Shown piece by piece: positions 38,586 through 42,902 of a stretch of DNA of 51,224 nucleotides; the first letter of the stretch is position 1, and every line of letters starts with the position of its first letter. The DNA is from Chlorobiota bacterium (GTDB taxonomy: Bacteria > Bacteroidota > Ignavibacteria > Kapaibacteriales > UBA961): positions 1-51,224 of the forward strand of contig BJGZ01000017.1 in the NCBI GenBank assembly GCA_014191195.1, read 5' to 3'. The notes under the pieces were generated by a model. The model was not told the DNA's origin and did not search any database. It was given only the letters and a program-made list of their open reading frames with translations. A program made the translations under genes and the position numbers.

Positions 38586-40601
38586 ATGAATACTTCTTTA
38601 AGCTCACATATTCCAATCAATGCAAAAAAGTATGATTATATTTTTGCAGGTGCTGGCGTTTCAGCTTGTTTAGTATTACTAGAATTGCATAGACAAAATC
38701 TTTTGCATCAAAAAAATATTCTTTTATTAGATCCTACCCTTCATAATACTAATGATAAAACATTTTGTTTCTGGGCTAATGAACAAGAAACAATTCTAGA
38801 AATTCTCTCTCCGTTTATTTCTCATTCTTGGTCTCACATTCAAATTTCAGATACAAAAGTTGATAATATTAGCCCATTAACTTATAATCATATAGAAAGC
38901 ATTTCTCTGTATCAAGAAATTGAGAAGCTTGAAAAAATCTATTCATGGGATAGATTATTTTGTGCGGTTGAAGATATATCAAGAAATGATACTGGAGCCT
39001 ATGTATGTACAAAAGAGTTGCTGTATTATGCTGATATTGTATTTGATTCTAGAACTCCTACATATCTTTCAAAGGAACATTTTCAAACACATATTTATCA
39101 AAGTTTTATTGGTTGGACGATTCAGTTAAACAAGCCTCTGTTTGATGTCGATACATTTAGAATGATGGATTTTAATATTGAACAAGACAATTCTACACAA
39201 TTTGTATATGTTCTACCATTTACGTCTTCGCAAGCATTAGTTGAAATCACAAGATTTGGTTCAGATCTCATCCAAAAGCAAAGTGCTGAACAAAATCTAC
39301 ATCACTATATTAAAGAACAATTCGGGGAATATTCTATAATAGATAGAGAGCATGGATGTATTCCCATGAGTAATGTAAAGATAGACAATGAAATCAAGCA
39401 TGATATTATTCTGTTAGGTGCCAGAAATTATCTTACTAAACCTAGTACTGGATATACATTTAAATCTATGTTTTATCACGCTAACAATATCGTTGATAAA
39501 ATATCATTATATCAAGATGTAAACTCTCTTAATATAGAATATACTCAGATGTCTAAAGGGCGTTTTGCTTTTTATGATTCATTATTATTACATATCTTAC
39601 ATACAAAACCTCATCAAGGAAAACCTATTTTTCAAGCTTTATTTCGTAGTGTAGATACAAAACATATTTTACGGTTTTTGGATGAAAAAACTTCGCTTAC
39701 AGAAGATATTTTGCTTTTTATTGCATTACCTTGGACGCCTTTTTTACAAGCTCTTGTACAAAAATTTATTACACTTTCTTGGTTAAGACCACTTCTTTTA
39801 ACATGTCTAACCATAATGTTATATGCACTTGGATATAATACAAATTCTCAACAAATCATAGGATATGGAATACTTGTAATAGGATTATTTGTTGTAGGAA
39901 TTCCACATGGAGCTGTTGATCATATCCTTGAAATGGGACATTGGGACATAAAAAGAACGCCTTCATTTATTATCAGTTATTTACTTTTATCTTCAATATT
40001 TGGATCTATCTGGTTTGTGTATCCTCCTTTGGCATTATTTCTTTTTATTGGATATTCTTGTTGGCATTTTGGAGAAGCAGACGGAAAGCAATGGGGATTT
40101 CATCCTTTAATTTCTTTTTTATGGGGATTCATTGTTCTGCTCTATATATTAACCAGCCATTTAACAGAAACAAATAGCATTACCAATTCTATTGCCAATA
40201 TTACTTTTTCTTGGCAATTCCCTGTGTGGATATTCTTACCATTTTTCTTGTTTTCTATCTTTAAGAAACAATATTCTTTATCAATAACTATTATATGGCT
40301 TATGATATCAAGCCAAATTCCTTTGCTATTGGCTTTTGGTATGTATTTTATTGGACAGCACAGCATAACAAGTTGGGGACACATTAAAGATCATATCAAA
40401 CAAAGTAATATTGCGATTTGGAAAAAAGCTTTGCCCTTTCACGCTGGGGCGTGGTTAATGCTTTTGATATTCTTTATATTAAGGCCACAAACATCTGTAT
40501 TAGATACAGATATATTTGTTCATTGGGGAACATTTTTCATATTTATTTCTTGTATTAGTTTCCCTCATAGCATAGCTATGCATAGATTATATCTAAAGTA
40601 A
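38586..40601 (+). CDS. Fused lycopene beta-cyclase and Brp/Blh beta-carotene 15,15'-dioxygenase
   Basis: This 671-residue two-domain protein should convert lycopene to beta-carotene and cleave that to two retinal molecules. Residues 1 to about 395 are a full Bacteroidota-type CrtY: dinucleotide-binding YDYIFAGAGVSA (16-27), KTFCFWANE, VFDSR, LPFTSSQALVEITRF, GCIPMSN and LTKPSTGYTF. From about 400 to the end there are roughly seven membrane helices with the Brp/Blh histidine motifs: PHGAVDH (His441, His446), WHFGEAD (His494), GQHS (His592) and PHSIAMH (His661, His666). There is no stop or frameshift at the junction, and both halves have normal length. The gene stands alone after tyrS; crtB, crtI and rhodopsin are not in the window. 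Each domain call is strong. Channelling between the domains is inference. Confidence 0.92.
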   Translation: MNTSLSSHIPINAKKYDYIFAGAGVSACLVLLELHRQNLLHQKNILLLDPTLHNTNDKTFCFWANEQETILEILSPFISHSWSHIQISDTKVDNISPLTYNHIESISLYQEIEKLEKIYSWDRLFCAVEDISRNDTGAYVCTKELLYYADIVFDSRTPTYLSKEHFQTHIYQSFIGWTIQLNKPLFDVDTFRMMDFNIEQDNSTQFVYVLPFTSSQALVEITRFGSDLIQKQSAEQNLHHYIKEQFGEYSIIDREHGCIPMSNVKIDNEIKHDIILLGARNYLTKPSTGYTFKSMFYHANNIVDKISLYQDVNSLNIEYTQMSKGRFAFYDSLLLHILHTKPHQGKPIFQALFRSVDTKHILRFLDEKTSLTEDILLFIALPWTPFLQALVQKFITLSWLRPLLLTCLTIMLYALGYNTNSQQIIGYGILVIGLFVVGIPHGAVDHILEMGHWDIKRTPSFIISYLLLSSIFGSIWFVYPPLALFLFIGYSCWHFGEADGKQWGFHPLISFLWGFIVLLYILTSHLTETNSITNSIANITFSWQFPVWIFLPFFLFSIFKKQYSLSITIIWLMISSQIPLLLAFGMYFIGQHSITSWGHIKDHIKQSNIAIWKKALPFHAGAWLMLLIFFILRPQTSVLDTDIFVHWGTFFIFISCISFPHSIAMHRLYLK

Positions 40602-40616
40602 AGTATGATATAATTC

Positions 40617-42902
40617 TTACATTTTTATACTTAATCCCAAAAAATACGTTCTAGGTCTGCTTGGGCCATAAACATAGCCTGCATCTCTTTTTATTCCAAT
40701 ATCAAAATCTTTTTGAAAAGCATTTGTACAATTTTGAACTCCAATATTCATTGTTACATCAAAACTAGAATTAAATTGATGATCAATATCTATTTTAATA
40801 TTGTTTTCAAAAAAAGAGGGAGTTTCGTTAAGCACATCTTGATTAATAAAGCCTGCATAATGCTGGGCAATCATAGAACCTGTATATACACCGGAAAAAT
40901 TTAATGAAACTAACTGATTAAGATTCCAAGAAATCACATAAAAACCATAATGATTTGGTGTCCTAAAAAAACTACTATTATTATTTTCAACTGTATTAGA
41001 CCATTGCACTGGAATGTCATATATACTATTTTGAAATGTATAACCACATTGAAAGCTGATAGTTTTTTTATACTGAATTTTAGGGTTTATGGTTATCCCA
41101 GCAATATAAGCAGCATTGCCATTTCTTCTTTCTAACAATATATCGCCATTATTAGCTAAGCCTTTTTTTTCTAAAATAAATACATTGTTTAGTGTAGTAT
41201 TAAAAACATCAATTGTAACTCCTATAGACCAATCATCAAGATATTTATTTATATCTAATGATCCACTAAATGCATGAGAATATTCAGGTTGCAGATCTTC
41301 TTTATTCTTTATGATAATTCCCCCACTATTTACTTGAGAAATATGAAGATCTTCATCAAATACTTGCGGAGCCCTGAAACCTTTTGCATATCCAATTCTA
41401 CCTTGGATATCAGGTGATATTTTATATAATACATTCACTCTAGGACTAAAAACGGGTATCCCAACCAAATTATGATAATCCAATCTACCGCCTACTAGTA
41501 TATTAACTATATCCTCATATTCACATAAATCTTGAAAGTACAATCCTAATTGTGCTGCTTTTTGATTAATTAATCGATTATACGACGGTGCTAAGTCTTT
41601 TAATGTATTGGAGTTATACTCTAGACCTGAAACTACTGTGTGAGTTCCACCAGCAATCTCACCTAATGTTCCTGAATATTGAAGTCCACAAACTAGACTA
41701 CGATCTATGGATATTCCGTATGCATTTTCATCGAATCCAGAACCATAATAACTATCTCTATCTAATAATTGGTATTGTAAATACGATGAAAATTTATGAA
41801 GCTTACTTTCAGTAAATTGTTCATATGTTATTCCAGCATTCAAAATATTGTGTGTTGTAGATTCAGTAATATCTGTTTTATGAAATGGTTGGTCAAATTT
41901 ATTTCCTCCTCTTCTAAATTCATACATAGTAAAACCAGTACATATAATTTTTGACAATTCTGAAGGTTTATAAAATGTTTTCATCGATACAGATGTAGCT
42001 CGTATTTGTCCTATTTCAGAAAATCCATCATTATTCATATCCCATTGACTTCTATTTCTGTTAAATCCATGTATAGATATTCCAGCATTTATTTCATCAT
42101 TTACAATATCAGTCCCAATCATATATGTTTGATCATTAGATTTTCCATCTATCCATGCTTGATTAGTTGTACAATACGCTGTATTTGTTTGTGGTTCCTT
42201 TGTAATAATATTTACGGTTCCTGCAATTGCACTACTACCATACAGTGAAGAACCTCCGCTTCTAACAACTTCCACTCTCTCTATCATATTTGTAGGAATT
42301 TGTTCTAATCCATATACGCCTTGAAGACTACTAAAAATTGGTCTACCATCTATTAATATCTGACTATATGCACTTTCTAAACCATTCATTCTTAAACCGC
42401 TAAAACCACAATTTTGACAATTATTCTCGATTCTAAGTGCTGGTTGAAAGCTTAATCCTTCAGATAATACCACAGATTGCGTAGCTTTAATGATCTTTTG
42501 ATCTATTAAACTACATTGTATTGGTGCATCTTTACGTAATACTTCACTGCGGGTTGCTGTTATAATTACATTTTCTAGTTTTAAAAAGTCTTCTTGAAGA
42601 TCTATATCATCAACTTGTACATGTGCATTATTAATATATACTTGAATTTCTTTAGAGATACATCCAATTGACGATACTTTTAATGTGTAATTTCCCTTTT
42701 GAAGATTTGATATGGTAAACGTGCCCTTTTTTCCTGTTATTGAACCCGTCTTAGTATTTGATACAACAATATTTGCTCCAATAATGGGCTTATTATTAGA
42801 TACTACCCTACCTGTCAGCTTGTAAGTATCTGCATATATATCAGAAGATAGTACAAGTATCACAACTGTTATAAACAATAGTCTTAACATAAAGCACATC
42901 AT
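40617..42902 (-). CDS. TonB-dependent outer-membrane receptor
   Basis: This 761-residue protein has a signal peptide (to about DIYA, residue 24) and a carboxypeptidase-regulatory-like beta-sandwich (about 26-105) typical of Bacteroidota receptors. The plug domain has IDGRPIFSSLQGVYGLEQIP and VEVVRSGGSSLYGSSAIAGT, and a 22-strand barrel ends YFLGLSIKM. It takes up a substrate using TonB energy. A Cys pair in NCQNCGF (Cys162, Cys165) sits in the plug. As I recall, this signature is shared by a BtuB/HmuR-like subfamily. Cobalamin, haem or a metal chelate are all possible; no cobalamin riboswitch was recognised upstream. The stop is 15 bases from that of the converging crtY-blh gene. Confidence 0.85.
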   Translation of the reverse strand: MMCFMLRLLFITVVILVLSSDIYADTYKLTGRVVSNNKPIIGANIVVSNTKTGSITGKKGTFTISNLQKGNYTLKVSSIGCISKEIQVYINNAHVQVDDIDLQEDFLKLENVIITATRSEVLRKDAPIQCSLIDQKIIKATQSVVLSEGLSFQPALRIENNCQNCGFSGLRMNGLESAYSQILIDGRPIFSSLQGVYGLEQIPTNMIERVEVVRSGGSSLYGSSAIAGTVNIITKEPQTNTAYCTTNQAWIDGKSNDQTYMIGTDIVNDEINAGISIHGFNRNRSQWDMNNDGFSEIGQIRATSVSMKTFYKPSELSKIICTGFTMYEFRRGGNKFDQPFHKTDITESTTHNILNAGITYEQFTESKLHKFSSYLQYQLLDRDSYYGSGFDENAYGISIDRSLVCGLQYSGTLGEIAGGTHTVVSGLEYNSNTLKDLAPSYNRLINQKAAQLGLYFQDLCEYEDIVNILVGGRLDYHNLVGIPVFSPRVNVLYKISPDIQGRIGYAKGFRAPQVFDEDLHISQVNSGGIIIKNKEDLQPEYSHAFSGSLDINKYLDDWSIGVTIDVFNTTLNNVFILEKKGLANNGDILLERRNGNAAYIAGITINPKIQYKKTISFQCGYTFQNSIYDIPVQWSNTVENNNSSFFRTPNHYGFYVISWNLNQLVSLNFSGVYTGSMIAQHYAGFINQDVLNETPSFFENNIKIDIDHQFNSSFDVTMNIGVQNCTNAFQKDFDIGIKRDAGYVYGPSRPRTYFLGLSIKM

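Follow-up and report, generated by a model that had tools for sequence, protein, structure and literature searches.

A lycopene cyclase–Brp/Blh fusion protein in aquatic bacteria predicted to make retinal from lycopene in a single polypeptide

The window analysed here (the whole 51,224-nucleotide stretch of DNA) encodes one protein in which a lycopene beta-cyclase (CrtY) is joined to a Brp/Blh beta-carotene dioxygenase, the last two enzymes from lycopene to retinal, which serves bacterial rhodopsin as its light-absorbing chromophore. We consider it very probable that this fusion is a bifunctional membrane-bound enzyme making the chromophore of the host proteorhodopsin, an explanation that includes a single origin of the fusion, a partition of beta-carotene between two fates and acquisition of the window copy from another lineage. 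The N-terminal, FAD-dependent CrtY half would act on the membrane and cyclise both ends of lycopene to give beta-carotene, and the C-terminal Blh half, predicted to be a membrane-helix bundle with histidine-bound iron, would cleave beta-carotene at the 15,15′ position into two molecules of retinal. Both activities are assigned from protein family, conservation and genomic context, and on these grounds the role from lycopene to retinal put forward in the first-pass annotation appears well supported.

The fusion gene (38586..40601, + strand) is a single ATG-to-TAA open frame of 671 codons (671 aa). Its CrtY half (residues 17-389; 38634..39752, +) matches Pfam PF05834 (Lycopene_cycl; E 2.6e-47, 162 bits against a cut-off of 23.4) over positions 1-378 of the 380 in the profile, and its Blh half (residues 433-668; 39882..40589, +) matches Pfam PF15461 (BCD; E 2.9e-30, 106.2 bits against a cut-off of 28) over positions 2-266 of 267, so that a full cyclase and a full dioxygenase share one frame, as had first been read from the sequence. 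The Blh half also passes the subfamily cut-off of NCBIfam TIGR03753 (Brp/Blh) with 117.7 against 95.25 bits. Between the halves, the junction (residues 390-432; 39753..39881, +) consists of the CrtY end and the first Blh helices, with no extra domain. The CrtY half matches NCBIfam TIGR01790 and TIGR01789 at full length but under their cut-offs (72.8 against 215.2 bits for the equivalog TIGR01789); stand-alone Bacteroidota CrtY proteins likewise score under the NCBIfam CrtY cut-offs, which points to a limit of the models and not of the fusion protein. We claim CrtY membership at the family level only, and because of the sub-threshold equivalog scores the CrtY half could possibly be a one-end cyclase giving gamma-carotene. 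An alignment of 50 fused proteins shows G22 and G24 of the FAD (dinucleotide) binding motif FAGAGVSA (38643..38666, +) to be invariant, together with Glu220 in LVEITRF (39243..39245, +), a candidate catalytic acid that we take to be the equivalent of the ‘FLEET’ Glu in Pantoea CrtY. AlphaFold modelled the two halves, and the junction between them, with confidence (mean pLDDT 90.7, pTM 0.81), and the N-terminal half has a fold matching flavoproteins of the geranylgeranyl reductase/UbiH/PHBH type; a sequence search of the PDB gave no solved homologue for either half. An Rfam search of the window gave no match, and a promoter scan gave no more sites than shuffled sequence.

The host genome (2.41 Mb, 100% complete) belongs to a lineage placed in Bacteroidota; among named records, a Candidatus Kapaibacterium MAG came out as its closest relative. 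A profile search of the genome gave a single lycopene cyclase and a single Blh, in each case the fusion gene, and no second Blh. Phytoene synthase-like genes are present (two of three are nearer to hopanoid HpnC/HpnD), as are phytoene desaturase homologues, and the carotenoid hydratase family PF04240 is absent. For phytoene desaturase, the best match appears divided between the ends of contigs G000:C9 and G000:C19 (L006, L008), most likely by an assembly break. The single host rhodopsin (RYVDWLLTVPLMCVEF) lies on another contig (G000:C15:14442-15110, E 4.8e-41) and has proteorhodopsins as its best PDB matches. It carries D..T..E (DTE) at the proton-pump positions and a Met at the colour-tuning site, which we take to mark the green type of Bacteroidota. 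A Gly of this rhodopsin presumably sits at the position of bacteriorhodopsin Trp138 and of the carotenoid-fenestration Gly of xanthorhodopsin, which serves as a lead.

Blh and opsin go together in related genomes: among 80, Blh is found in 14 and an opsin in 15, with all 14 Blh genomes within those 15 (P about 1e-14 if the two were independent, a figure inflated by kinship of the genomes). One genome of the order carries an opsin (G020:C3:2331-3002) with no detectable Blh, and may take up retinal from outside or produce it by another route. Of the fused loci, 21 have an opsin gene in the same orientation 4-130 bp upstream and 6 more have one nearby; in 28 the flanks contain none, and in 9 the flank is too short. 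In the window, a TonB-dependent receptor gene lies beside the fusion (40617-42902, − strand); congener G004 (L158) lacks it at a locus that is collinear in other respects, the fusion there being only ~217 bp away from rpsP.

The host has no other cyclase and no other known retinal-forming enzyme, so the beta-carotene made by the fusion would have two fates: some would be cleaved to retinal, and some set free as substrate for a CrtZ-like hydroxylase, which would yield a zeaxanthin-type carotenoid that possibly serves as an opsin antenna. The candidate hydroxylase is a 151-aa PF04116 protein encoded in the host genome and present in every congener searched. It is homologous to Aquimarina ORFs situated between crtI-like genes and crtY, and it has no NCBIfam match; its motifs are, in our assumption, those of CrtZ (beta-carotene hydroxylase). 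The CrtZ call is made from PF04116, the carotenoid-cluster neighbours in Aquimarina and the motif, not from an NCBIfam equivalog. If the call is right, beta-carotene must leave the fusion, since no other cyclase is present; this argues against strict channelling and for a partition, with a partial hand-over between the two halves. The first-pass annotation had instead expected little free beta-carotene; in its strict form this would be tight channelling, in which beta-carotene stays on the protein and all of it becomes retinal. The physical fusion of the two enzymes and their short, conserved junction speak for such a scheme, but a CrtZ-like hydroxylase here and in every congener, in need of the beta-ring that only the fusion makes, renders it improbable and weakens the expectation of little free beta-carotene. 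The 1:1 ratio of making and cutting subunits pointed out in the same place is trivially true for one polypeptide.

The histidines of the Blh half bear on its catalytic state. In a passage of PMC9227343 that quotes Kim et al. 2009, mutation of His21, His78, His188 or His192 in a studied marine Blh is given as leaving <5% activity. We mapped these residues to H441, H494, H592 and residue 596 of the fusion by motif and spacing, and compared the columns in 65 fused and 51 stand-alone Blh domains. The counterpart of His21, His441 (IPHG; 39906..39908, +), is kept in 65/65 fused and 50/51 stand-alone domains, the exception being one gap. Three others are present in 65/65 and 51/51: His494 (WHFG; 40065..40067, +), matching His78, His592 (QHS; 40359..40361, +), matching His188, and the universally conserved His661 (FPH; 40566..40568, +). 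At residue 596, four positions after His592 and equivalent to His192, the window has Ser, and the fused clade as a whole has G (46), S (15) or A (4). The fusion retains three of the four studied histidines, and the description of the Blh histidine motifs as intact holds for H441, H494, H592 and H661 but not for the His192 equivalent. This +4 His occurs in 0/65 fused and 29/51 stand-alone domains, and its absence from 22 of the 51 stand-alone proteins indicates that the residue is not family-defining. Two residues, His525 (40158..40160, +; 65/65 fused and 11/51 stand-alone domains) and Glu528, never vary within the fused clade but do so outside it, and may substitute for the absent His192.

The loss of the His192 equivalent in all fused members and the invariant His525/Glu528 pair peculiar to them could also be taken to mean that the activity of the Blh half is gone or altered, so that it binds or hands over carotenoid or acts on another substrate while retinal is made otherwise. 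This is quite unlikely given the four other invariant histidines, a dN/dS of 0.19 (see below), the lack of a second Blh in a 100% complete genome and the strict co-occurrence with opsin; moreover, stand-alone Blh proteins encoded beside opsins also do without the +4 His (e.g. L139, L142, L143, L145, L149, L153).

Comparison with a congener copy (L013), which is 85% identical to the window fusion and has a frame open throughout, gives dN/dS values of 0.23 for CrtY, 0.19 for Blh and 0.52 for the junction (43 codons). Purifying selection acts on both the CrtY and the Blh half. In 62 of 64 fused members, 31-35 residues separate the CrtY profile from the Blh profile; nothing was thus inserted, and the CrtY end continues into the first helices of Blh itself. 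The junction has the highest dN/dS of the three parts, as might be expected if a protease cut the fusion there after translation and the cell used two separate enzymes; its almost fixed length and its modelling as helices with high confidence make this very unlikely.

The join itself recurs widely. Our scan of 84,980 species genomes returned 79 loci encoding a relative, and after removal of duplicates, with the window copy counted, 64 scored loci hold an intact one-frame join; a TGA-recoded locus (L026) is one further case. The same join elsewhere, the open frame in the congener and the dN/dS values exclude chance or a read-through error. Although crtY and blh are adjacent and overlapping in unfused relatives, a sequencing or assembly error merging two neighbouring genes has a negligible chance of being the source, as the join recurs in 63 other scored loci and, with a conserved frame, in the congener. 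The first annotation was right that the fusion is real, and the scan places the architecture in about 65 aquatic bacterial genomes. The fused proteins form a widespread clade, and the fusion is not peculiar to the window genome. One fused homologue (L078:3529-5663) appears to be frameshifted in its cyclase part, which is read in two overlapping frames; it is a pseudogene or a sequencing error. In an even draw of 395 genomes of the phylum, 58 have a Blh match, and four of these (G000, G003, G006, G118) encode it together with CrtY in one frame of >640 aa. Another long frame (G292, 958 aa) was considered as a second, longer Blh fusion and rejected: its upstream part has no Pfam domain and resembles an open frame in high-G+C DNA, and a Met stands directly before the Blh domain, which is a stand-alone Blh.

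Trees built from either half and from both bear on the origin of the join. A single branch sets the fused proteins apart in the tree of the CrtY half (SH-aLRT 96), and the same holds for a careful joint tree (support 83/90; 84% of bootstrap trees); most simply, with moderate support, the fusion would have arisen once. In the Blh-only tree, however, a split pair (L098) forms a long branch within the fused clade, so that L098 may possibly represent a later fission or a second fusion event. At 10 of 11 junctions examined in unfused relatives, a candidate start codon for blh, in a different frame, lies no further downstream than the end of the crtY stop, and two unfused genomes (L148, L150) have the gene order opsin-crtY-blh. 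We infer a direction from overlapping separate genes to fusion. The starting state would be the neighbouring crtY and blh of aquatic Bacteroidota, overlapping in different frames, and a change such as a small indel at the overlap would have brought the two reading frames into register and eliminated the crtY stop.

The fusion has, judging from its phylogeny, moved between distant bacterial groups. In congeners G003 and G006 the fused protein is 35-36% identical to that of the window and belongs to a different clade, and their opsins are the sister of the window opsin (support 99, 82-84% identity). The fusion gene sits between tyrS and rpsP in the window and in congener G004, and no fused gene was found next to tyrS in G002, G003 or G006. 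On the simplest reading, the window lineage would have swapped its own opsin-linked copy for one from a Bacteroidia-like donor at a new site. The window copy looks like a horizontally acquired replacement, vertical inheritance being disfavoured by the trees and by the comparison of loci. A copy labelled Myxococcales (L069, PBLQ01000057.1, a Myxococcota MAG) is nested among Flavobacteriales, suggesting a transfer or a mislabelled bin. Viral origin or spread was set aside: no relative was found on viral contigs, and the best BFVD match is a stand-alone lycopene cyclase of a giant virus.

The recoded locus (L026:3355-10201; JAGXIV010000027.1, ‘bacterium isolate LH_M94’) has a fused CrtY-Blh frame broken by TGA alone. 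Every in-frame stop across the matched region is TGA (13/13), and four of them stand in (nearly) invariant Gly columns, for which reasons a reading of the locus as a pseudogene was rejected. UGA is read as Gly in Gracilibacteria/Absconditabacteria, and the host is probably a member of that group. Translated with code 25, the contig encodes a rhodopsin, crtY-blh, phytoene synthase (crtB), phytoene desaturase (crtI) and a Na/Ca exchanger; the rhodopsin is of the sodium-pump type, with an NDQ motif and E about 1e-73 to solved sodium pumps. The UGA=Gly reading would make the host a CPR bacterium equipped to produce retinal by itself, in contrast to the rhodopsin-bearing Saccharibacteria, which have no blh (PMC9296517). 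As a speculative extension, possible though doubtful, the fusion could be a valve at a branch point: the Blh half would catch only a share of the beta-carotene on its way out of the cyclase, so that a single protein would determine how much retinal is made relative to the hydroxylated carotenoid antenna of a fenestrated proteorhodopsin, and the compact retinal module would have passed between phyla, including to a CPR-type bacterium with UGA=Gly that then made its own retinal.

The fusion would give aquatic bacteria another, widespread way of making retinal, one that is counted as two ordinary genes when crtY and blh are searched for separately. It would be a natural, ready-made enzyme for converting lycopene to retinal, its fused and split natural versions allow a direct test of the hand-over from cyclase to cleavage, and so compact a gene may aid the movement of rhodopsin phototrophy between lineages. 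The architecture had been thought not to be commonly described; in agreement with this, the full-text literature, with thin coverage of subscription journals and preprints in which an earlier mention is possible, gave no description of a bacterial CrtY-Blh fusion.

Compared with the separate CrtY and Blh of proteorhodopsin bacteria, the fusion has the same families, full-length domains and operon order (L148, L150), and differs in being one polypeptide that lacks the +4 His and has the invariant His525/Glu528. The opsin-crtY-blh operon with overlapping crtY and blh (G259, G214) is alike in gene order and content and differs in encoding two polypeptides in different frames; it is presumed to be the pre-fusion state. 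Among cyclases, the CrtYc/d type is unrelated to the FAD-dependent CrtY. The nearest described protein comes from a eukaryote and unites four enzymes, with a CrtYc/d cyclase fused to Blh (PMC10016063). It resembles the bacterial fusion in joining a cyclase to Blh for retinal production and differs in its type of cyclase and in the two further enzymes fused to it, which, together with its eukaryotic host, points to an independent fusion.
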